DNA of 33,970 bases from a virus. Positions 9,319 through 32,773 of this stretch are shown piece after piece. Under the pieces are notes generated by a model. The model saw only the letters and a program-made list of their open reading frames with translations, had not been told where the DNA came from and searched no databases. The stretch lies in IMG/VR virus record IMGVR_UViG_3300032294_002231, positions 1-33,970 of that record. One strand, written 5' to 3'. A program made the translations under genes and the position numbers. How positions within the stretch are numbered: position 1 is the stretch's first letter; every line of letters starts with the position of its first letter.

Positions 9319-10602
9319 TTACTCTATAATCAATAATGAATAGTCGAACGGTGGATTAGTTACAACAATTTGATTCTGGGCTAGATCTACCACATTTCTA
9401 ACCTCTATTTTTGCAGATCCTAGTTCATATATTCCAGGTTCAGAACCTTCCAGAATGTCACCCAAGCGCGTTATATTTTGTAAGAATTCATCTTTAGTTG
9501 GATCTATATTTGTAAAGTCTACTTCTACTTTTATATTAAAGTCTATTGGGCTTCCTACTTTATATATAGATTCAAAATCTGTTGCATTATAAAACTTTTG
9601 TGCAAAGTTCCAATCTTCATTTGAAAATCCTAAAAGTTGATTTGCTGGCTCATGCTCATTACTTAGAGTATTAATCATTAATTGTTTTTGATCCTGACTA
9701 GATATCCATACTCTAGAAAAATAAACTTCTAATTGTGCAAGGAACATTGGATTTATCGTTCTACTATCTTTAATTACTAGGTCTATATCTAATTTTTTTA
9801 ATTTAGATTCTCCATGATTAAATCCTCCCCACTTTTTTAAAAATCTTCTTAATTCAATTCCATCAGCAACTTTTTGAAGTTCCACTCTTTTTTTAGCTTC
9901 TTCGTTATTTGGATCAAACCAATTCTTTCCTCTAGAACTTGTGCATGTAAAATGATATACATTAGCTTTCCAAGTTTGAATTAGTTTAATCTCAGCGTGA
10001 ATACATCTTTGTACAAGATCTGAATCTTCTCTTGATCTTCTAAATAACGTATCATAACCACCGATGCTTTGCCATACTTTTTTATAAAATGTTATAGGTG
10101 CAAAGAAATACTCAGCAGTTCTATTAGATTTTACAGATTCGGAATATGCATTCCATTTATTAATATCGAATACTGTAGGATCTGTTCCAAAATCTTCTGT
10201 TATTGTATAATCAGAATATCCATGTAATGGTGGTTCTATTCTAGTTGCAGACAATATACAATTATCTTCTATCTCAGATAATATATTGGTATCATAATGA
10301 GGACCTATAACCATGTCTGATTGAAGATAGGATATTATATCGTGTTTTGCTAATTCTACTAATAAATTATTATTCCTAGAATATCCTATACAAGGTTTTA
10401 TTTTATGTGTTATTATTTTTAAATCAAAAAAATCTTTTTGAATGCTTTTTAAATAACCATAAACATCTTCATTATCTGAATCTATAAATACTATTATCTC
10501 ATGCTCTTTGCCATCTAAATTATCTTTTAAAGATTTCATTAACAACTCTACATGATCTCTGGTGTTAACGGATGTGTTAGTTACAAAACTTATATTTTTC
10601 AT
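9319..10602 (-). CDS. Family 2-type (GT-A) glycosyltransferase, 427 aa
   Basis: A GT-A fold is indicated by the N-terminal strand and nucleotide-sugar site (ISFVTNTSVNTRDHVELLMK, then IIVFIDSDNED). A metal-binding acidic motif, YLQSDMVIG, lies near residue 93, and the acceptor-side REDSDLVQRC near residue 190. This catalytic domain spans about residues 1-235. The remaining 190 residues are a C-terminal extension that I do not recognise, which makes the protein longer than a minimal family-2 enzyme. It is the last gene of the sugar cassette in transcription order and overlaps the preceding epimerase gene by 26 bases. Donor and acceptor are unknown. Confidence 0.8.
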   Translation of the reverse strand: MKNISFVTNTSVNTRDHVELLMKSLKDNLDGKEHEIIVFIDSDNEDVYGYLKSIQKDFFDLKIITHKIKPCIGYSRNNNLLVELAKHDIISYLQSDMVIGPHYDTNILSEIEDNCILSATRIEPPLHGYSDYTITEDFGTDPTVFDINKWNAYSESVKSNRTAEYFFAPITFYKKVWQSIGGYDTLFRRSREDSDLVQRCIHAEIKLIQTWKANVYHFTCTSSRGKNWFDPNNEEAKKRVELQKVADGIELRRFLKKWGGFNHGESKLKKLDIDLVIKDSRTINPMFLAQLEVYFSRVWISSQDQKQLMINTLSNEHEPANQLLGFSNEDWNFAQKFYNATDFESIYKVGSPIDFNIKVEVDFTNIDPTKDEFLQNITRLGDILEGSEPGIYELGSAKIEVRNVVDLAQNQIVVTNPPFDYSLLIIE

Positions 10603-11368
10603 ATTCTAATTTTAATGCATTTTCAAAACCTATTAAGTCTATTGGTAGATCTAATAGTGAAGTTTCCTCTCCTACATATTTTGTAGTACTACTAATTTTA
10701 TCTTCAATGTTTATATCCACTTCATAGTCTCCTAAAGTGTTTATTAGTTTAGCAATATCAATTAAAGATCTTTTTTCTTTTGAGTAACAGCAGTCTACGA
10801 ACTTGGCAGGATATTCAGTTTCTATATAATATTTAACTACGGTCCAAAGATCTTCCATGTAAAAAAAGTCCATGAATTTATTTCTATGTATTTCAATTGG
10901 TTTTTTATTTACATAATTACTTAATGCAGATCTAATAAATCTAGTCTCTAATTCTCCTTCACCAAATAAAGAAAATATTCTTATATTGTAAAAATTAAAT
11001 TGATCAAGTATAGATTTATGAATTACTTTTTTACTTAGACCATAAGGAGTGTAGTCTAAATAATCTTCAGCTCCAGATCCAAATGTTATAAATTTACTAT
11101 ACTTATTTTTGTGTTCTAAAATATTATAGTACATTCTTATATTATCATCTAAAACATCCCAGCTATCATGATACAATCTACTACCACCTCTAACTGCGCA
11201 ATGAATAACCAAATCAAACCTAGTATGAGAATTAAATAATAGGTCTACATGCCCTCTATTAGTGAAGTCTACTACAGATCTTTTAGGTGTATATACATCA
11301 TGATTCTTTAATTTTTTAGATAAAAATCTACCTATAGTGCCATTACTACCTGTTATAAGAATCTTCAT
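10577..11368 (-). CDS. NAD(P)-dependent sugar epimerase/dehydratase or reductase (SDR), 263 aa
   Basis: An extended short-chain dehydrogenase: Rossmann motif TGSNGTIG at residues 6-13 and active-site Tyr-Lys in TPYGLSKK near residue 120, with a Ser/Gly-rich region (FGSGAED) just before. It is shorter than the usual 310-340 residues, resembling compact 4-keto-reductases and GDP-fucose-synthase-like enzymes. It could reduce or epimerise a keto-sugar made by the dehydratases of the cassette. It directly follows (abuts) the E1-beta-like gene, whose product may act on the same sugar. The exact reaction cannot be told. Confidence 0.8.
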   Translation of the reverse strand: MKILITGSNGTIGRFLSKKLKNHDVYTPKRSVVDFTNRGHVDLLFNSHTRFDLVIHCAVRGGSRLYHDSWDVLDDNIRMYYNILEHKNKYSKFITFGSGAEDYLDYTPYGLSKKVIHKSILDQFNFYNIRIFSLFGEGELETRFIRSALSNYVNKKPIEIHRNKFMDFFYMEDLWTVVKYYIETEYPAKFVDCCYSKEKRSLIDIAKLINTLGDYEVDINIEDKISSTTKYVGEETSLLDLPIDLIGFENALKLEYEKYKFCN

Positions 11369-11907
11369 TATTTTTCTTTTGAATAGTCTGCAAACTCTAC
11401 AAGAATTGTACTCTTACCATCTTCACGCTCTAAAGCTTTTTTATAAGCAGGCATAATATCTTCTGGTTCATTTAATTCAATAACTTCTATATTTTGAAGC
11501 ATGGATCTAAATGCATTAGAAAAATTTCCTTTATGCTGACATTGGGGATCTATAGGTCTCTCACTTCCTACTGCAACTCTAATAATAACTTTAGGTCTAC
11601 ACTTACCACTTGACATAGTGATAAATTTATCAAGATGATTTACTATTTGATCTGCGCCCATTAAAATAAAATTCCATCTAGGAAATGTAGATACTGGTAT
11701 TAATCCGCCTTCTATTGCCATTCCATTTGCTAAACCGCATTGTAGATATTCTGCAACAGGTAATTCTATTCTTTTATTTTCTGATATATGTTTTAATGAA
11801 TCATACAATCCGGTTCCTTCATACTCTACAGCTTGACCAATAAAAATAGTTTTTGGATCTTCTGCTAAAAAACTCATTGCTTGTTTTAATTCTTCTGCGT
11901 ATTTCAT
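11368..11907 (-). CDS. E1-beta-like subunit of a thiamine-diphosphate enzyme, 179 aa
   Basis: This resembles the pyrimidine-binding (Pyr) domain of 2-oxo-acid dehydrogenase E1-beta and transketolase. It begins YAEELKQAMSFLAEDP and has FIGQAVEYEGTGLY, ELPVAEYLQCGLANGMAIEG (the Glu that activates thiamine diphosphate lies here in the family) and the QIVNHLDKF helix. The start is placed at 11907, 4 bases after the stop of the partner gene. A full E1-beta has about 325 residues; the C-terminal transketolase domain is missing. With the neighbouring E1-alpha-like subunit it should form a split ThDP enzyme. In a sugar cassette, two-carbon transfer to a keto-sugar is the likely job (inference). Confidence 0.8.
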   Translation of the reverse strand: MKYAEELKQAMSFLAEDPKTIFIGQAVEYEGTGLYDSLKHISENKRIELPVAEYLQCGLANGMAIEGGLIPVSTFPRWNFILMGADQIVNHLDKFITMSSGKCRPKVIIRVAVGSERPIDPQCQHKGNFSNAFRSMLQNIEVIELNEPEDIMPAYKKALEREDGKSTILVEFADYSKEK

Positions 11908-11911
11908 AATA

Positions 11912-12538
11912 TTAAAATTGAACTCTTTGTCCTGCCCCAGCATGAGGATATTTTTCATTATTATATTTGTAGTATATTAAATGAGGTTGATATACAATAT
12001 CTTCTGTTGGTTCTTTATCTAAATAGTAAGGAATATCTCTTCCCCATATTTTATTTGTTGGAGTACAAACAGACTTCTGATTATCTTCTACAACAAATAT
12101 TATAGGAAGATCATGACCTTGTGCAAATTTATACGCTTCATGCCAATGTCCTGTTTCTGTACTCATGTCTCCCGTCCAAACCCACACTCTTCCTTTTTTA
12201 TTTTGTAATTTCAAAGACCATGCTATACCTGTCGCTATAGAAGGAATACCTCCTACTATAGATGAACAAATAAATTTATACTCAGGCAAATTCATTACCA
12301 TTGATTTTCCATCTAATATTCTTTCTGTAATTACTTCTTTAGGAATTCCTTTTAGTAGTGCCTGATAGTGATTTCTCCAAGTACAACACACCCAATCATT
12401 TTCTGTATCTATATTTTTAAATACCTTAATTATTTGATCTTCATTTCCAGAATATAAATGTATAGGTGCTTTTATTTTACCAGCATTAAAAAGATCTCCT
12501 ATTTCTTTTTCAAAATCTATAAGTTGTTCTTTTGTCAT
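11912..12538 (-). CDS. E1-alpha-like thiamine-diphosphate-binding subunit, 208 aa
   Basis: The ThDP-binding motif GD-(x28)-N is present as GDMSTETG at residue 123 and VVEDN ending at residue 153. Upstream blocks typical of E1-alpha are seen: HLYSGNE, CTWRNHYQALLKG and SSIVGGIPSIATG. The chain is much shorter than the usual 330-370 residues. It lacks the phosphorylation-loop region and any lipoyl-domain partner in the cluster, so a dehydrogenase complex is unlikely. Its stop lies 4 bases before the E1-beta-like start, so the two subunits are made together. It probably decarboxylates a 2-keto acid or cleaves a ketose and donates a two-carbon unit. Confidence 0.82.
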   Translation of the reverse strand: MTKEQLIDFEKEIGDLFNAGKIKAPIHLYSGNEDQIIKVFKNIDTENDWVCCTWRNHYQALLKGIPKEVITERILDGKSMVMNLPEYKFICSSIVGGIPSIATGIAWSLKLQNKKGRVWVWTGDMSTETGHWHEAYKFAQGHDLPIIFVVEDNQKSVCTPTNKIWGRDIPYYLDKEPTEDIVYQPHLIYYKYNNEKYPHAGAGQRVQF

Positions 12539-12542
12539 ATTA

Positions 12543-13241
12543 TTATTTTCTATGTTTAAAGATCATATAATGGTTCCAATCAGTTATATTTTCATCTGGT
12601 AAAAGCGTTTCACTACTAATTCTTGGATAGTGAGGAGTTTTTAATTCTGATCCATAGAATCCTTCCATTTGCCAATGATGGGTATATAGTAAATAAATAA
12701 AGTTATCAAAATCAAATAAACCTCTATAAACATACTGATGAGACATTCTCCAATTAGGATTGCTTATAAAGAACAAAGAGTTTTCATTTGTTAATTGATA
12801 TACGGTTTTTATAATAATATGAGGATTGTATACATGTTCTAAAAAATCATTAGCAATAACTAAATCGTATTTATCATACAATCCAGAAGTATCAAATGCG
12901 CTTGATAATTCTTTTACAAAAAAAGTTCCTTTAAATCCATGTTCTTTAAAATATTTTTCTGCAAATGGTTTATCTACCAAATGATATTCTAAATTAGGAT
13001 TTGTTTCTAATATTTTTTGAGATAATATTCCTGGACCACTACCAATCTCTAGTACTCTTTTGATATGTGGATTCTGTGAAATTGTTTCTAATATAAGAGA
13101 AGCTTCGTATTCATATCTTCTTTGCCATGCATTTTCTTGTAATCTACCAGCATCTTCCCATTCATTTAAATGTTCTGTGTCAAAATGCTCCATTGAAAAT
13201 ATTTCCTCAAAATTTGTATGTTGTATTCTAAATAGTCCCAT
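12543..13241 (-). CDS. Class I SAM-dependent methyltransferase, 232 aa
   Basis: SAM-binding motif I is VLEIGSGPG near residue 70. Motif II/III-like YHLVDKPFAEK and YDLVIANDFLEHVYNP follow in order, matching Methyltransf_11/23-type enzymes. The C-terminal part is rich in Tyr and His, perhaps for sugar binding. The start is at the ATG 13241 within TAATG, overlapping the stop of the RmlB-like gene; a TTG 6 bases upstream is less likely. It probably methylates a sugar or glycan made by this cassette. A role on a protein or lipid is not excluded. Confidence 0.82.
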   Translation of the reverse strand: MGLFRIQHTNFEEIFSMEHFDTEHLNEWEDAGRLQENAWQRRYEYEASLILETISQNPHIKRVLEIGSGPGILSQKILETNPNLEYHLVDKPFAEKYFKEHGFKGTFFVKELSSAFDTSGLYDKYDLVIANDFLEHVYNPHIIIKTVYQLTNENSLFFISNPNWRMSHQYVYRGLFDFDNFIYLLYTHHWQMEGFYGSELKTPHYPRISSETLLPDENITDWNHYMIFKHRK

Positions 13242-14206
13242 TACCAAATAAATTTATTTTTATAATAATTTACAATCTCTTTTAGTTCTTCATCAAAATC
13301 TGCTTCAGGTTTCCAACCAAGTGATCTAAGTTTAGAATCATCTAAAGCATATCTAACATCCTGACCTGGTCTTGAGTACGATAAGTCTAAATAAGATTCT
13401 ATAGGAAAAATCTCTTCTGCTCTATTATATTCATTTATTACTTTCTTAACAGTATCCCAATTAGATTGTTCATATCCTCCTGCTATATTGAATATTTCAT
13501 TTTGAATTTCACTTTCAATTATTTTTACAACTGCTTTAGCTGTATCAGAAGCATGTAGCCAATTTCTTATAGGACTTCCATTATTATGAAGAGGTATTTT
13601 TTTTCCTAATTTTAAATACTTACAAGATCTAGGAATTAATTTTTCTACATATTGCCCTATACCATAGTTATTTGTTGGTCTAACTATAACATATGGAATT
13701 TTATATGTTCTTCCCCAAGCTAATATTAATTGATCTGCCGCTGCTTTAGTTGCGGAATAAGGATTAGAAGGTTTTAATAAATCTAATTCTGTATGCACTC
13801 CATCTTCTATATCACCATAAACTTCATCTGTAGAAAAATGTATTAGTGTAGGTTTTTTACTTGATTCCTGTCTATAGTTTTTAATTAATTCTAATAAATT
13901 ATGAACACCATTTATATTAGAATGGATAAACTCATTAGAATTAACTATTGAATTTCCTACATGAGTTTCTGCTGCTGTGTTTATTATGGCATCACATTCA
14001 TATAAAAATTTTAGATTATTAATATCTTCTTTTTCCCATAAAAATTTATCTTTATACTTTTCTGAGAATTCAAATAAAAGATCTTTATTTGCGGCGTATG
14101 TGCATTTATCTATACCATATACATACCAACCTTTTTCTAAACAGGCTTTTGTTATGTGACTACCTATTAGTCCAAAACAACCTGTGATATAAACTGATTT
14201 ATTCAT
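13241..14206 (-). CDS. dTDP-glucose 4,6-dehydratase-like enzyme (RmlB family), 321 aa
   Basis: The Rossmann motif is TGCFGLIG. NTAAETHVGNSI, FSTDEVYGD and the catalytic YSATKAAAD occur in RmlB order, and VRPTNNYG and YALDDSKLRSLGW are typical C-terminal blocks. It would convert a nucleotide-activated glucose into the 4-keto-6-deoxy intermediate, the branch point of many deoxysugars and the expected substrate step for the RfbH-like gene at 22941. The nucleotide (dTDP, CDP or GDP) is uncertain. The length is typical. It overlaps both neighbours by a few bases. Confidence 0.88.
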   Translation of the reverse strand: MNKSVYITGCFGLIGSHITKACLEKGWYVYGIDKCTYAANKDLLFEFSEKYKDKFLWEKEDINNLKFLYECDAIINTAAETHVGNSIVNSNEFIHSNINGVHNLLELIKNYRQESSKKPTLIHFSTDEVYGDIEDGVHTELDLLKPSNPYSATKAAADQLILAWGRTYKIPYVIVRPTNNYGIGQYVEKLIPRSCKYLKLGKKIPLHNNGSPIRNWLHASDTAKAVVKIIESEIQNEIFNIAGGYEQSNWDTVKKVINEYNRAEEIFPIESYLDLSYSRPGQDVRYALDDSKLRSLGWKPEADFDEELKEIVNYYKNKFIW

Positions 14207-14984: not shown

Positions 14985-16227
14985 ATAGCGTATCGTATTT
15001 AAATCTATTTTTAACAATATAACCTAAATCTTTCATAAAATTATCAAAATCTTTTAAGTTAGTACCAGTTTCGTAAGTTTCAAACTCACTAGTTTCTGCA
15101 AAAATTAGTTTTGGTCTAAAATCGCCTAAACACTTTAAAACTTTCATCTCAGCCCCTTGAACATCTATATGTAAATAATCTATATTTTTTATATTACTTT
15201 CTATGCAAAATGTATCAAATCTTTTTGTTTTTACTTTATATCCTTTTAAATCATATTCTAGACCGTCATGAAAAATACCTTCTGAAGTACCTTCTTTTAC
15301 AACTGGTTTTACTATAGATCCTGAATTTTTCCATGTTTTACCATTTAAGTTATCACTAGGATAAAATAATATTTCTCCATCTGAATCGGATAGCGCTATC
15401 GGTAATACTTCTATTCCAAATCTAATAGCATTTTGTGAAAATTGATCTATATTATATGAATCTGGTTCGAAAGAATAGACTTTTGAATTTTTAAATGCAG
15501 ATTTAAATACAATTGATTCTTTAAAGTCGCATGCTCCTACATCAAATATAGTTAAATTATCTTGATCAGTAAAATAATTTTTAATTATTTCAACTTCTGG
15601 ATGAATTACAAATATATCATCTGTATGTAGTCTGTCTACTAAATTATATCCTTTGCTAAATAACAAGTCTCTTATATCTTTATTTTCATAATTATTTTCT
15701 ATAGCCATTGTTTTTATATTAAATTTGTAAAAATCTATACATTTTAAAACTTCTAGCTCTCCTCCTTCTATGTCTAAACTTAGAAAATCTATTTTTTTAA
15801 AATTATTATCTAATAAAAGTTTATTTATATCATAACACTTCATATTAATATCAGTGGTTTTTTGATTTAAAGAATCTACTTCTTTATTTATTCTTTCCAC
15901 ATGTTGATCTTCATAAACTTCTACTATACCACTAAGCATTTCAGAATATCCTTCAATCATTCTAAAAACTTTATTAGTATCTTCACTCCATGCGCATCCT
16001 TCAACTAATATACAGTTTCTATTTTGTTTTAATTTAGTAAAAATTTTAGGATGAGGTTCTATACAAATTCCACTCCAATTAAGAACTTTTTCAAAAAAGA
16101 AAGTATTACTTAAACTTTCTCCATCATGTGCTCCTATATCAACAAAAACTCCACCTATTTTATTTTTAAAATAGTTTTCATTTATATATCTATCTTGTCC
16201 ATATTGAGATTTGTAAAAATTAACCAT
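14965..16227 (-). CDS. Tandem FkbM-family methyltransferase (two domains), 420 aa
   Basis: Two successive FkbM-type methyltransferase domains lie in one chain. Domain 1 (about residues 1-205) has SQYGQDRYI, VFVDIGAHDGESLSN, CIEPHPKIF and FLSLDIEGGELEVLK. Domain 2 (about 215-420) has IFDVGACDFKES, VYSFEPDSYNIDQFSQ and YLHIDVQGAEMKVLK. FkbM enzymes O-methylate sugars and polyketides using SAM. The usual enzyme has a single domain of about 200-270 residues, so this is a fusion or duplication. The two halves differ enough that they may act at different positions of one sugar. It sits between two sugar-modifying genes. Confidence 0.88.
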   Translation of the reverse strand: MVNFYKSQYGQDRYINENYFKNKIGGVFVDIGAHDGESLSNTFFFEKVLNWSGICIEPHPKIFTKLKQNRNCILVEGCAWSEDTNKVFRMIEGYSEMLSGIVEVYEDQHVERINKEVDSLNQKTTDINMKCYDINKLLLDNNFKKIDFLSLDIEGGELEVLKCIDFYKFNIKTMAIENNYENKDIRDLLFSKGYNLVDRLHTDDIFVIHPEVEIIKNYFTDQDNLTIFDVGACDFKESIVFKSAFKNSKVYSFEPDSYNIDQFSQNAIRFGIEVLPIALSDSDGEILFYPSDNLNGKTWKNSGSIVKPVVKEGTSEGIFHDGLEYDLKGYKVKTKRFDTFCIESNIKNIDYLHIDVQGAEMKVLKCLGDFRPKLIFAETSEFETYETGTNLKDFDNFMKDLGYIVKNRFKYDTLYEFYGS

Positions 16228-17266
16228 AAATTTCTATTATATTATTTAATATTTTTTCTATACTATAATCTTGTTTCCAATTTGGATAATGTTTTTTAAA
16301 CTTGCTTGTATTACTAATCCACCAAATATGATCTCCTATTCTATTTTCATTAATATAATTTAATTTCATTTTTTTATCAGTAATCTTTTCAATTAATGAT
16401 ATGGCTTCAATTATGGAGCAGTTTGAATATCTACTTCCTCCTATGTTATAAACTTCTCCAATCTTTGGATTTTTATAAACTTCATAAAATGCAGATACTA
16501 AATCCATGGAGTGTATATTGTCTCTGACTTGTTTTCCTTTATATCCATATAAATTATATGTACGACCTTCTATATTACATTTAACAAGATAATTTAAAAA
16601 ACCATGAAGTTCTGCACCTTTATGTTTTGATCCTGTTAAACAACCTCCCCTAAATACTGTTGTTTTTAAATTAAAATACTTTCCGTACTCTTGTACATAT
16701 ACGTCAGCAGATAATTTAGAGCATCCGAATAAACTATGTTTTGTTTGATCCATAGAAAAATTTTCAGGTATTCCTTCATAATACTCATGAGATTTTTCTA
16801 ATTCATATCTAGTCTCTAATTCTATTAACGGTAAATAATTTGGATTATCACCGTAAACTTTATTAGTAGAAGTAAAAATAAATGTAGCTTTAGAACAGTA
16901 TTTTTTAGTTAATTCTAATAAATTTAATGTTGCTGTTGTGTTAATATGAAAATCAGTAAAAGGTTCTTTTGCTGCCCAGTCGTGTGATGGTTGGGCAGCG
17001 GTATGTATTATACAATCTATATCAGATGAATATTCATTAAAAATTTTTTCTAAGTCAATATAATTGCGTATATCTATTGTATGCAAAATAAAATTATTCT
17101 GTGCACGTAAGTCATCAAGACTAGAATTTACTGAGCCATCTTTTCCAAAAAAATATTCTCTCATGTTATTATCTATCCCAATCACTCTAAATCCTTTTGA
17201 TAAAAAAAATTCAGTTGATTCACTTCCTATAAGTCCACCGCATCCGGTAATTATTATTGTTTTCAT
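16220..17266 (-). CDS. CDP-paratose 2-epimerase-like SDR, 348 aa
   Basis: The Rossmann motif is TGCGGLIGSE. Blocks matching the CDP-paratose/tyvelose epimerase group follow: FTSTNKVYGD, LETRYE, GKQVRDNIHS and a C-terminal YNIGGSRYSN. The family converts CDP-paratose to CDP-tyvelose by C2 epimerisation. An oddity: the usual catalytic Tyr of YxxxK is Phe here (SLFGCSK). I recall related phage/bacterial homologues with the same FGxSK motif, so this may be a subfamily trait rather than a mutation. Length is normal. It would pair well with the RfbH-like gene of the same cassette. Confidence 0.78.
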   Translation of the reverse strand: MKTIIITGCGGLIGSESTEFFLSKGFRVIGIDNNMREYFFGKDGSVNSSLDDLRAQNNFILHTIDIRNYIDLEKIFNEYSSDIDCIIHTAAQPSHDWAAKEPFTDFHINTTATLNLLELTKKYCSKATFIFTSTNKVYGDNPNYLPLIELETRYELEKSHEYYEGIPENFSMDQTKHSLFGCSKLSADVYVQEYGKYFNLKTTVFRGGCLTGSKHKGAELHGFLNYLVKCNIEGRTYNLYGYKGKQVRDNIHSMDLVSAFYEVYKNPKIGEVYNIGGSRYSNCSIIEAISLIEKITDKKMKLNYINENRIGDHIWWISNTSKFKKHYPNWKQDYSIEKILNNIIEIYG

Positions 17267-18887: not shown

Positions 18888-19711
18888 AGTATGTCTTTAT
18901 ATTTTGTATATAAAAAATCTTCTCCTATTTTATGTTTTAAAGCTAAATTAAAATTTTCTTTTATTTCTTTATGATGAGAATTATAAAAATTTATCAAGTA
19001 TTCTTGATTGTTTATTATCTTTTCAAGTTCTTCATAAGTGTCAAAAATTAAAAATCCGTTAGAATTAAAAAAATTTTGTATGTATTTAGATCCATAATAT
19101 ATAGGAATACATCCTGATAGGAAACAATCTATTATTTTTTCTGTAAAATAATAACCCTCTTTAATGTTTTCAACTACTACAGAAAAAGCATAGTCTTTTA
19201 CTGAATGTATTTTTTTAACTCTTCCTGTACCTGTTCCACTTCCCATAACATCAATTAAATTTCCATACATTTTAGCAATGTTATGTCTAATACTATGACC
19301 AGGAGCAAAGTTTTTATCTGAATACATCATGGATATTAACTTCGTTTTTTCATAGTCTAGCTTAATCTCTTCTTCATCTAAATGGCATCCTCCTATAGGA
19401 ACTATATATGAGTTAGGAAATTGTAAAATACTTTCTGAGTGAGTAAATATTTTATCAAATAAATGATGATTTGACATTACAAAATTATATGCTTCTCTAG
19501 TAACCGCTGGGGATTCTATTAACCATGCATACTTTTTAAGGTGTTTATACTCTAAATTGCTAACTGTATTTACATGGCTGTCTGTAAAAAATATAAAATT
19601 ATTTAAGACATTATTAAAATCCCACTCAAAGTATGTTGGCTTAAACCAATTACTAGTAGAATAGGCATGAGAAAAGTGCGCATCTTTTATAGACCATTTT
19701 TCTAAATTCAT
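18884..19711 (-). CDS. Family 10-type (fucosyltransferase-like) glycosyltransferase, 275 aa
   Basis: The C-terminal donor-binding block FTEKIIDCFLSGCIPIYYG (residues 189-207) and the preceding SVVVENIKEGYYF closely match the alpha-1,3-fucosyltransferase (GT10) signature. It is smaller than the 300-450 residues of most family members, and the N-terminal half is poorly conserved. GT10 enzymes transfer 6-deoxy-sugars from GDP-fucose. Here the donor may be the unusual deoxysugar built by the cassette (inference). It overlaps its neighbours by 4 bases on each side. Confidence 0.78.
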   Translation of the reverse strand: MNLEKWSIKDAHFSHAYSTSNWFKPTYFEWDFNNVLNNFIFFTDSHVNTVSNLEYKHLKKYAWLIESPAVTREAYNFVMSNHHLFDKIFTHSESILQFPNSYIVPIGGCHLDEEEIKLDYEKTKLISMMYSDKNFAPGHSIRHNIAKMYGNLIDVMGSGTGTGRVKKIHSVKDYAFSVVVENIKEGYYFTEKIIDCFLSGCIPIYYGSKYIQNFFNSNGFLIFDTYEELEKIINNQEYLINFYNSHHKEIKENFNLALKHKIGEDFLYTKYKDIL

Positions 19712-20349
19712 ACAAGATCAGTTAATTTATCAAAAACTTTCCATTTAGTTGGCATAGTTTTTACAACATATAAAGATTTTAAATTTATAAGAGAATTCCA
19801 AACATTATAAAAATTATCAGAACTTAATATATTATCATTAATTTTTTTAGGATTTAATATTTGTATTCCACTTGCAAATAAATTAGATTCACAATCTCTA
19901 GATATTTTATCTATAATGTTATTACTATGTAGTATTTTATCTGCCTCTAATTTTATATCTATAGGAATTATACAAGCAGAAGGAGATCCTAACTCTACAT
20001 ATTCATCATATACTTTTTTTAAATCTAAATCTATGATAACATCACATGGTGATATTACTATAGGTTCATCAATGTATTTTATAATACTGTTAAATAAAAA
20101 ATATGAATTATCTTTATTTTTTGTATTAATAAAACCAGAAACTTTATTTTCTAATTCTTTAACAAGTATATCTCCTTTATATCCATAAGTAACATAGATA
20201 TTTTCTATATTATTTGAGTTTAGAAAATTTATTACATGATCTATTAAAAATACATTATTAACTTTAACCAAAGCTTTTGGAACATATTCTGTTATAGGTT
20301 TCATTCTAGAACCTAAACCTCCTGATAATATGATAGCATTTTTAAACAT
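19708..20349 (-). CDS. Sugar-1-phosphate nucleotidyltransferase, 213 aa
   Basis: The NTP-binding loop is AIILSGGLGSRMKPITEYVP with PKALVKVNN following, the classic GGxGxRxxP...PKxLxxV pattern. The later VISPCDVIIDLDL is the Mg-binding Asp region. Without C-terminal beta-helix it is compact, like GCD1/ManC-N-type enzymes; typical RfbF/RmlA proteins are about 255-290 residues. It would activate a sugar-1-phosphate for the cassette. Which nucleotide (CTP, GTP or TTP) is used cannot be seen. Given the RfbH-like gene, CTP is an attractive guess. Confidence 0.85.
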   Translation of the reverse strand: MFKNAIILSGGLGSRMKPITEYVPKALVKVNNVFLIDHVINFLNSNNIENIYVTYGYKGDILVKELENKVSGFINTKNKDNSYFLFNSIIKYIDEPIVISPCDVIIDLDLKKVYDEYVELGSPSACIIPIDIKLEADKILHSNNIIDKISRDCESNLFASGIQILNPKKINDNILSSDNFYNVWNSLINLKSLYVVKTMPTKWKVFDKLTDLV

Positions 20350-21958: not shown

Positions 21959-22944
21959 AAAGTATAAAGTTTTTGGATTATATCTTTTTTCCAGACTTCT
22001 ATAGAATAGTATTTATTGTAATTGTTTTTTGCAATATAACTACATTCTTCGTAAAATGATTTATTTTCTTTTAAAGTAGTAGCTAATTCTACGGCTCTAT
22101 TTATATCGTTAACATCTACAGATAAACTAGGATGGCATATTTTTTGAGTGTCTACTTCTCTGTTACCTATACAAGGTATTCCAAAATATGCACAATTTAA
22201 ACTAAAAGTACCTGCTGCTATCGTAGGCATTAGATGCACTGCATATTTAAAGTTAGATAAATTTTTCATCCAATCCAACCACTCCATTCTTGGTAGATGA
22301 TTTAATTCATCCATCATTTCCTCTGCTTCTCTTTTAGCATGAGAATCTTGAACATATATAGGAATAGAAAACTTAGATGCTACTATATAACTTTCAAAAC
22401 CTCCATACCATCTAGCAAAATTTCCTCCAATAATACAAATATCTTGTTTAGTGGGAATTATTGAAGATAGATTTTTTTCTATCATTAAAGTTTGTATAGT
22501 ATTTACTTTCTTATTTGGAAATAAACCTTTATAATATTGAGTATCATGTTCATTATGCGCAAATATAGAATCGCATTCTTGTATTAAATTATAAAAATGT
22601 ATTTGATCATAAACTTTATAATCGTTCCATAACCAGTGTGGACCTTCTTGTACAAAGTGAACTTTTTTATTTTTAGATTTTAATTTAGTAACTAGATTAG
22701 ATACTAATATATCTGAGATAGGATTTGTATTATTTACTAGTTTTACTCCTATTGAATTTAAATAAACTTCTCCTTTTGGAAATATAATAAAAATATGATC
22801 ATAGTTTTGAATAGACTCAAATAATCTTATATTATAGTGATCAGCATTTAATGCATGCATCCATGCAAATTCAGTTCTCATATTACGATGATCTTCTGAT
22901 ATTTTCCCTGAGAATCCCATCTCTGTAAGAAAAGCTATTTTCAT
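21955..22944 (-). CDS. GT-B-like glycosyltransferase, 329 aa
   Basis: A protein starting MKIAFLTEMGFSGKISEDH with an alternating strand-helix pattern through both halves, as in GT-B enzymes. The C-terminal half contains IVASKFSIPIYVQDSH, HLMPTIAAGTFSLNCAYFG and IPCIGNREVDTQK, the equivalent of the donor-binding region. Clear EX7E or similar motifs are not seen, so the family number is unsure. It sits between two recognised sugar genes with 4-base overlaps on both sides, which supports a role in the same glycan. Confidence 0.62.
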   Translation of the reverse strand: MKIAFLTEMGFSGKISEDHRNMRTEFAWMHALNADHYNIRLFESIQNYDHIFIIFPKGEVYLNSIGVKLVNNTNPISDILVSNLVTKLKSKNKKVHFVQEGPHWLWNDYKVYDQIHFYNLIQECDSIFAHNEHDTQYYKGLFPNKKVNTIQTLMIEKNLSSIIPTKQDICIIGGNFARWYGGFESYIVASKFSIPIYVQDSHAKREAEEMMDELNHLPRMEWLDWMKNLSNFKYAVHLMPTIAAGTFSLNCAYFGIPCIGNREVDTQKICHPSLSVDVNDINRAVELATTLKENKSFYEECSYIAKNNYNKYYSIEVWKKDIIQKLYTL

Positions 22945-24254
22945 ATTTGATTAATAAATTTATTAAGAATAGTTTCTATATAGTCTATCTTTTCTTTATT
23001 AATTACCGGCGATGTTCCTAAAAAAAATGTATCTGTAGTAACTTTTCTTGCAATAGGAAACTTTTCAATAACTTCTTTTGGATCCATAAGTCCTTCATAA
23101 GCAGGTTGTAACATAATATTACCTGCAAAATACGGTCTTGTTTGTATTTTATTTGCTTCAAAAAATTGACAAATATCTGATCTTTTAAATGGCGCATCAT
23201 CTTTTAAAGTTATTGGGAATGCAAACCAATCTACATCTGCTCCTGCTTGTGCTTCATGTAAATGAAAATATTGATCATACTTTTTAAAAGCATTAAATAG
23301 ATTTTTATAGTTTTCTCTTCTCTTAACTCCTATTTCTTCTAACTTTTCCATCTGTACTAATCCAATTGATGCCTGAAGCTCAATAGGTTTTAAATTATAG
23401 CCTATCTCTTCATAAACATATTTGTGATCAAATAAATCATTTGGTAGCGATGGTAGCCAATTATTAAAGCGGCAACCGCATGATCCTTTTTCTAACAAGT
23501 TTTGCTTACCTATACAATAACAACCACGACCCCATTCTCTAAAGCTACGTATAATTCTTTCAGTTTGTTCATCTTTACATGCAACAAATCCACCTTCTGC
23601 CATAGTCATATGATGCGCTGGATAAAATGAGCAACTTGCTAATTCACCAAATGATCCTAAAGGTTTTCCTTCATAGAAAGATCCTAATGCGTCACAACAA
23701 TCTTCTAATAAAATTAATTCATACTTTTCAACAATTTCCATAAGCTTTTTCATATTGGGAGGATTTCCTAATACGTGAGCAAATGTAATAATCTTTGCAT
23801 CAGGATTATTTATGCATGCTTGTTCTACTTGATCAAGATCTAAATTAAGAGTTTCAAGTTCAATATCAACAAATATAGGAGTGAATCCTACTTGTAATAT
23901 AGGATTAATAGTAGTAGGAAAACCTGCAATTGGTGTAATTACTTTTGTACCTTTAGGTAAGTTACGACCTCTTTTAGATGTCATAACTAACATCATTAAT
24001 AAGTTAGCACTTGATCCTGAATTGGCTAATAGTCCATAGTCTTTACCAAACTTTTTAGGAAACCTTGTTTCAAATTTGTTTGCATCTGCTCCTAATACTA
24101 ACCATTCAGTCAATAAACTTTTAACAGCGGCAACATATTCATCTGAAGAAAAATACGGTCCTGCATATTGAACCCAATCTTTTCCTGCTTCCCATTTCTT
24201 TTCTGCGTGTTTTTCTTTAATATACTTTTCTACTAATCCTAATATTTCTTTCAT
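22941..24254 (-). CDS. rfbH: RfbH-type CDP-4-keto-6-deoxyglucose-3-dehydratase (DegT fold), 437 aa
   Basis: A PLP-binding DegT/DnrJ/EryC1/StrS fold protein, but the catalytic Lys is replaced by His (SFYPAHHMTMAEGG, residue 214), the hallmark of RfbH/E1 and ColD-type dehydratases. The 2Fe-2S region is recognisable: WGRGCYCIGK then GSCGCRF (Cys 245, 247, 259, 261), followed by DHKYVYEEIGYNLKPIELQASIG. The 437-residue length matches RfbH. It removes the C3 hydroxyl on the way to 3,6-dideoxyhexoses such as paratose, tyvelose, abequose or ascarylose; in bacteria a reductase (RfbI/E3) supplies electrons, and none is visible here. ATGA overlap couples it to the next gene. Confidence 0.88.
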   Translation of the reverse strand: MKEILGLVEKYIKEKHAEKKWEAGKDWVQYAGPYFSSDEYVAAVKSLLTEWLVLGADANKFETRFPKKFGKDYGLLANSGSSANLLMMLVMTSKRGRNLPKGTKVITPIAGFPTTINPILQVGFTPIFVDIELETLNLDLDQVEQACINNPDAKIITFAHVLGNPPNMKKLMEIVEKYELILLEDCCDALGSFYEGKPLGSFGELASCSFYPAHHMTMAEGGFVACKDEQTERIIRSFREWGRGCYCIGKQNLLEKGSCGCRFNNWLPSLPNDLFDHKYVYEEIGYNLKPIELQASIGLVQMEKLEEIGVKRRENYKNLFNAFKKYDQYFHLHEAQAGADVDWFAFPITLKDDAPFKRSDICQFFEANKIQTRPYFAGNIMLQPAYEGLMDPKEVIEKFPIARKVTTDTFFLGTSPVINKEKIDYIETILNKFINQI

Positions 24255-32361: not shown

Positions 32362-32387
32362 ATTTTTTGTTTTTTTTTAATTTTTAG

Positions 32388-32773
32388 TGGAGATAGTGGG
32401 ATTCGAACCCACGTCTCCGAAAGAGACAATAATACTAACGTCTCACATGCTTAGTACTGCTTGCGCTGCACCGTAAGGGCTGACTTGTTATGGTCGGATC
32501 CACCACTTGATTTTATGACTATCAAGAAAACTAATCCACAGTCCTTATTTAACGAGTCGATCGTGAATACTCGGAGTAGTTCTGTTCCTAGGTTACTCAC
32601 CCGAGTTTGACTAGGCAGCTACTGCGTAGTCAGCACCAACGAAAGACATTGCGTCTTCGAAAGTGAAAGAAGATAATTCTTCAGCGTTTATTGTTTAGTA
32701 TCTTCTAAGGCAGTATACTCAAATGCCTGCATGTAGTATTACCTCAACATTCGGATCGATACCGGTTATCCCC
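32388..32773 (-). ncRNA. ssrA: tmRNA (ssrA), 386 nt
   Basis: The ends form a tRNA-like domain: GGGGATA at 32773 pairs with TATCTCC at 32389-32395 (discriminator A), with a T-arm CGTGGG/CCCACT region carrying TTCGAAT just inside. The tag frame runs from about 32685 (GCT) to the TAG at 32611-32613: it starts AEELSSFTFE and ends GADYAVAA, 24 residues in all. The -VAA end is the usual protease-recognition end. The tag is unusually long against the 8-12 residues common in bacteria. tmRNA rescues stalled ribosomes; a phage copy could do so with its own tag. It is not the 3' half of a host gene. Confidence 0.9.

Follow-up and report, generated by a model that had tools for sequence, protein, structure and literature searches.

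A pair of mini E1-type genes within a phage sugar cassette

The stretch of DNA analyzed here (the window) is a virus record of 33,970 bases, and its main genes are encoded by the minus strand. Among these are two genes resembling the alpha and beta subunits of thiamine diphosphate (ThDP)-dependent E1 enzymes, mini E1-alpha (11912..12538, minus strand; 208 aa) and mini E1-beta (11368..11907, minus strand; 179 aa). Each gene keeps only its ThDP-binding domain. Alpha represents the pyrophosphate-binding domain and covers only positions 5-171 of the 300 in the Pfam model E1_dh (7e-18), while beta represents the pyrimidine-binding domain, with Transket_pyr (3.4e-9) as its sole Pfam match and no transketolase C-terminal domain reported by Pfam. 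A spacer of 4 bases (TATT) lies between the alpha stop codon and the beta ATG, and a preliminary description of two E1-like genes truncated to their ThDP cores was thus right in coordinates, lengths and spacing. An upstream in-frame ATG at 11958 would extend beta to 196 aa and make it overlap alpha; beta homologues, by contrast, are mostly about 178 aa long. Residue numbers given below are counted from the starts that yield 208 and 179 aa. The same description had stated that E2/E3 partners are missing, and no E2 or E3 genes occurred among the neighbors of the pair examined in the window, nor among the conserved neighbors of the 79 related viral loci described below. With short subunits, a beta chain without C-terminal domain and no E2/E3 nearby, the pair differs from the E1 component of a 2-oxoacid dehydrogenase complex.

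The pair had also been placed amid sugar genes, which holds for the sugar SDRs, the glycosyltransferases and RfbH. SDR-A (13241..14206, minus strand) is an RmlB-type nucleotide-sugar 4,6-dehydratase that scores 286.7 bits with TIGR01181, below the cut-off of 365. The scores of this protein, 286.7 bits for the dTDP-type versus 67.8 bits for the CDP-type dehydratase model, favor a dTDP-type enzyme, but do not by themselves settle whether the nucleotide is CDP or dTDP. RfbH (22941..24254, minus strand), a PLP- and Fe-S-type 4-keto-6-deoxysugar 3-dehydratase, reaches 459.6 bits with NF011936 and so exceeds the cut-off of 423. Both proteins bear the residues of a yersiniose-type pathway: the catalytic T-D-E and the Y and K of YxxxK in SDR-A are identical in 89/89 distinct homologues, and the replacement of the PLP lysine by His, together with three clustered (Fe-S) cysteines, is found in 95/95 distinct close phage homologues of RfbH.

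SDR-B (10577..11368, minus strand; Pfam Epimerase, 2.4e-17) is an extended SDR for which we propose, by analogy to YerF, the role of ketoreductase of the sugar branch. The glycosyltransferase adjoining it (9319..10602, minus strand; Pfam Glycos_transf_2, 3.3e-6) is, by its position, a candidate for transferring the finished sugar. A SAM methyltransferase (12543..13247, minus strand; Pfam Methyltransf_23, 1.7e-13) is encoded between SDR-A and alpha and possibly tailors the sugar; a homologue directly follows SDR-A in two of the related loci (L006 and L035). A second extended SDR of the epimerase/dehydratase family (16220..17266, minus strand; Pfam Epimerase, 2.4e-35) belongs to the same gene run, outside the conserved core. 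A reductase partner of RfbH (E3) was not seen among the cassette genes scanned in the window, nor was a clear cytidylyltransferase seen in the window. Both activities would have to be supplied by the host, whose enzymes could serve here. A short nucleotidyltransferase gene is present at 19708-20349; among the loci of the alpha scan, it was found in just one. The window further contains two tRNA genes and a tmRNA gene (32387-32773, minus strand; Rfam RF00023, 68 bits) with the tag AEELSSFTFEDAMSFVGADYAVAA.

Predicted fold and active-site residues of the pair

AlphaFold2 models were obtained for alpha (pLDDT 93.8) and beta (pLDDT 90.9). The best matches in the PDB were E1-alpha chains for the former (1umb_C, Z 19.1; 1ni4_A, Z 18.9 over 200 residues at 2.5 A) and an E1-beta chain for the latter (1um9_B, Z 24.0 over 171 residues at 1.7 A). 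Both proteins match E1 families and not acetolactate synthase families, which sets them apart from YerE-like single-chain flavoproteins. In profile alignments, G123-D124 and N153 of alpha, which are conserved in the family, align to the GDG...N Mg-ThDP motif, and E53 and H125 of beta align to PISE and QH of human PDH, respectively. The pair therefore possesses both the Mg-ThDP motif and the activating Glu (beta E53) of ThDP enzymes of the E1/transketolase superfamily. The structural alignment of alpha ends with residue 204 on 268 of PDH alpha and on 296 of BCKD alpha. Read back from there without gaps, His199 of alpha falls on PDH alpha-His263 and on BCKD His291, and the title of PDB entry 1olx names a catalytic role of His291-alpha in BCKD. 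Judged from these alignment ranges, an internal segment and the C-terminal end seem to have been deleted from alpha, with the catalytic histidine loop retained. The preliminary description had raised the possibility that key ThDP residues are missing. They are not: D124, N153 and H199 of alpha and E53 and H125 of beta are invariant in 53 alpha and 36 beta homologues.

The same superfamily includes the transketolases, which also matched both models, and the pair might accordingly be read as a minimal split transketolase that takes a two-carbon (hydroxyacetyl) unit off a ketose phosphate and passes it to a keto-sugar, as proposed for miharamycin-type split transketolases. Split transketolases have been proposed as keto-sugar-branching enzymes in streptomycetes (PMC12247030), and the fused cyanophage relatives described below carry a transketolase-like annotation. 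We nevertheless consider this reading unlikely. Transketolases and DXS ranked below E1 in the structural comparison, with transketolase Z scores of about 14-15 for alpha and about 17 for beta versus 18.9 and 24 for E1 chains; no transketolase model attained its cut-off, and the E1-type histidines are retained in the pair. In addition, in related phages the same slot is filled by a relative of enzymes that use 2-oxo acids (see below).

A conserved gene module and a shared slot in phage genomes

Scanning viral sequences with alpha identified 79 loci with homologues at 58-74% identity, 77 of which also hold beta and 72 the RmlB-like 4,6-dehydratase SDR-A, so that the pair lies beside sugar genes in many other phages as well. 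SDR-B was detected in 61 to 70 of the loci, depending on the threshold, and comes after beta in most of them. RfbH was found in 68/79 loci by clustering and nearby, at a sequence identity of at least 50%, in 58/79. For 12 alpha loci with no RfbH in the vicinity, the search was extended to the whole records: all seven records longer than 20 kb gave a match (six RfbH matches at 70-85% and one distant DegT only), and the five shorter ones gave none. The gene order of the pair is constant across the loci. Alpha, beta, SDR-A, RfbH and SDR-B thus form a conserved five-gene module. A look for homologues in isoprenoid, vitamin or acetoin surroundings, which would have spoken against the earlier reading, brought up no close one; the relatives reside in sugar or polysaccharide-like clusters. 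A role in acetoin, pyruvate dehydrogenase, isoprenoid or vitamin metabolism was rejected, since E2/E3 are missing and no such context appeared in the related loci examined. One locus (L009:16324-18657) contains a second, diverged alpha/beta pair beside a DegT protein whose PLP lysine is replaced by His, possibly a 3-dehydratase of another type.

Vice versa, we started from RfbH and ignored ThDP genes, which resulted in 80 loci, 63 of them distinct. A ThDP gene was present in 29/39 distinct loci with SDR-A versus 2/24 without it (p = 2e-7), and SDR-B was also linked to a ThDP gene (Fisher p = 4e-4), where both p values ignore kinship among the loci and are thus optimistic. SDR-B also occurs in two RfbH loci in which no ThDP gene was detected. 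In the RfbH-scan loci, the slot directly after SDR-A is occupied four times by alpha and 14 times by a ThDP protein that consists of one chain of about 590 aa. A representative of the latter (from L156) matched acetolactate synthase models below their cut-offs. Compared with solved structures, it scored 468 bits with 8rph, a record titled thiamine pyrophosphate-binding protein, and 264 bits with the next best. We take 8rph to be the YerE-like lyase JanthE. By its sequence matches, the single-chain enzyme of this slot appears to be a relative of acetolactate synthase and of the YerE-like lyases.

Within the main subgroup of the single-chain enzyme, 12/16 loci additionally encode an acetaldehyde dehydrogenase and a 4-hydroxy-2-oxovalerate aldolase, and the copies in L162 exceed the curated cut-offs for both. 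These two enzymes would make the kind of donor that is used by ErwE. They were found in 0/119 alpha loci (not deduplicated) and not in the window, and their absence from the alpha loci favors pyruvate as donor and a two-carbon branch for the mini pair. Loci in which the single-chain enzyme and both donor genes come after the 4,6-dehydratase (L162:13727-17330; also L177, L181, L191, L200, L207 and L208) are candidates for an erwiniose-like pathway in phages, leading to a four-carbon branch. The two ThDP types are not strictly exclusive, as six alpha loci (L002, L005, L007, L008, L017 and L028) also contain a single-chain ThDP gene that is more distantly related and adjoins SDR-B in at least some of them.

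Phylogenetic analysis placed the window in a well-supported, phage-only clade (100/100), beside which stands a group of phages and a few cellular sequences. No member of the window's clade was found among about 85,000 cellular genomes in a scan that started from the clade-A alpha alignment and used only two peptide patterns. A second, broader scan also rested on few peptide patterns, and the cellular relatives among its listed matches belong to CPR bacteria, Omnitrophota, Pelagibacteraceae, Verrucomicrobiota and archaea. These relatives often lie in polysaccharide-like clusters, and some have His-type DegT genes alongside the mini enzyme. Radical SAM-looking genes flank the pair in several of them (L132, L134 and L136), and in a 735-kb phage (LR756501; L083:8388-10606) such a gene is located between beta and alpha. 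The best matches on plasmids reached about 30% identity and bear annotations of ordinary E1 genes or of other ThDP genes; a Streptomyces plasmid match was rejected as a branching cluster, as the region looks catabolic.

In the cyanophages S-SM2 and P-TIM68, the same two mini domains are present in one fused chain, the alpha part of which is 39-41% identical to that of the window. PHROG 34187 groups this fused phage form and is annotated as unknown function. An alcohol dehydrogenase is encoded alongside in 32/32 of the fused cyanophage relatives, and close homologues of RfbH or SDR-A were never found beside them. In L081:10969-14731 (Synechococcus phage S-SM2) and in L084-L115, the fused mini ThDP enzyme is accompanied by an MDR alcohol dehydrogenase and an HldE-type sugar kinase, and heptose-type genes also occur near the fused proteins of S-SM2 and P-TIM68. 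These neighbors suggest a different sugar product, and the lack of a close RfbH indicates that the family at large is not bound to a single acceptor.

This diversity bears on a further alternative, namely that the pair is a true carboligase that uses another 2-oxo acid donor, or an acceptor other than the RfbH product, so that the branch would not be a two-carbon unit at C4. It would fit the fused and cellular relatives that lack a close RfbH and lie near alcohol dehydrogenase, kinase or radical SAM genes, as well as the six loci with both ThDP types. However, the window's clade is nearly always accompanied by the dehydratase and RfbH, and donor-making genes were never found in mini-pair loci, which makes this alternative quite improbable for the pair studied here. 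The occurrence of the pair cannot be attributed to chance, as it has homologues in 79 viral loci and a low median dN/dS among close relatives (0.14 for alpha, 0.17 for beta). That the two genes derive from the E1 of a host pyruvate or acetoin dehydrogenase and have decayed to functionless relics, as their being far shorter than known E1 subunits might suggest, is hardly credible in view of this low dN/dS, the invariant catalytic positions, the constant gene order and the confident models of folded proteins.

A proposed yersiniose-like pathway

Branched 3,6-dideoxy sugars occur in some bacterial O-antigens and antibiotics, and YerE is a single-chain ThDP flavoprotein of the decarboxylase superfamily. 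YerE acts on pyruvate and CDP-3,6-dideoxy-4-keto-glucose (PMC12247030, a 2025 review). We consider it likely that alpha and beta are the two halves of a minimal E1-type ThDP carboligase in a phage-encoded, yersiniose-like pathway. In this pathway, SDR-A would convert an NDP-glucose to an NDP-4-keto-6-deoxyhexose, from which RfbH, with electrons from a host reductase, would remove the C3 hydroxyl to give a 3,6-dideoxy-4-keto sugar. The mini alpha/beta enzyme would then decarboxylate pyruvate and add the acetyl anion to the C4 ketone, and SDR-B would reduce the ketone of the new branch. The product would be a yersiniose-like, 4-C-branched 3,6-dideoxy sugar that phage glycosyltransferases may put on a host or virion glycan. 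The computed basis of this reading consists of the fold, the conserved catalytic residues, the five-gene module and the slot shared with the enzyme akin to YerE-like lyases; from it we infer every catalytic step, including the pyruvate donor, the C4 acceptor, the order of the steps, the nucleotide and the destination of the sugar. The candidate role in making a branched deoxysugar that had been assigned earlier gains support from the module in 79 viral loci, the reverse scan and the sharing of the slot, and on these sequence-based grounds the phage probably makes an unusual branched sugar.

The proposed logic is that of yersiniose A synthesis, with a 4,6-dehydratase, an RfbH-type 3-dehydratase, a ThDP carboligase and a ketoreductase, and in related phages the enzymes akin to YerE-like lyases occupy the very slot of the pair. 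In contrast to YerE, the phage carboligase is a two-chain E1-type mini enzyme and does not have the acetolactate synthase fold; the pathway is also phage-borne and, in the window, comes without a visible RfbH reductase partner or clear cytidylyltransferase. Sugar branching by ThDP enzymes is known from single chains of the YerE type and from E1-type pairs of full length, and has been proposed for split transketolases. Among the full-length pairs, termed alpha-keto acid dehydrogenase 2, which attach two-carbon branches from pyruvate (PMC12247030, PMC4425429), AviB1/AviB2, Pau11/Pau12 and KbDH-alpha/beta likewise are E1-alpha/E1-beta-type pairs without E2/E3 in deoxysugar clusters. The analogy to avilamycin-type sugars drawn in the preliminary description therefore stands insofar as such E1-like pairs exist, but not with regard to size: these pairs are full length (Pau11, 325 aa; Pau12, 345 aa; PMC4425429), whereas the phage pair (208 + 179 aa) lacks the beta C-terminal domain and has an apparent internal deletion in alpha. 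By its length, the pair represents a distinct mini form, though of similar proposed action. The fused ThDP proteins of S-SM2 and P-TIM68 (PHROG 34187) share its two mini domains, but in one chain. The erwiniose enzyme ErwE prefers 4-hydroxy-2-oxo acids (PMC12247030), a preference that the single-chain enzyme and donor genes of the L162-type phages fit; the mini-pair loci and the window, in contrast, have no donor-making genes.

Neither phage-encoded yersiniose nor the mini pair came up in the open-licence literature searched. Viral RfbH alone has already been listed among auxiliary genes (PMC10653327); what is new is the joining of the pair and RfbH as a branched-sugar pathway, which no open-licence paper that we found describes. 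Taking all loci together, we lean slightly towards a broader view, in which a large phage lineage possesses a class of sugar-branching enzyme peculiar to it, an E1-type carboligase of two domains whose size is below that of the described E1-type pairs. Through the exchange of this enzyme in the slot with YerE/ErwE-like ones, phages would change the branched sugar on virion or host glycans from a yersiniose-like one with a two-carbon branch to an erwiniose-like one with a four-carbon branch, or back. If true, viruses with a nearly complete and widespread pathway remodel glycans using rare sugars, for which superinfection exclusion, evasion of surface-based defenses and virion decoration are plausible uses. 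The mini pair would then also offer a biocatalyst of very small size for making chiral tertiary alcohols, and the exchange in the slot would amount to a natural experiment on donor length. Many of the loci L153-L231 (clusters k7 and k15) additionally encode GDP-mannose 4,6-dehydratase-like and GDP-fucose synthase-like proteins, and these phages thus seem to make more than one deoxysugar.
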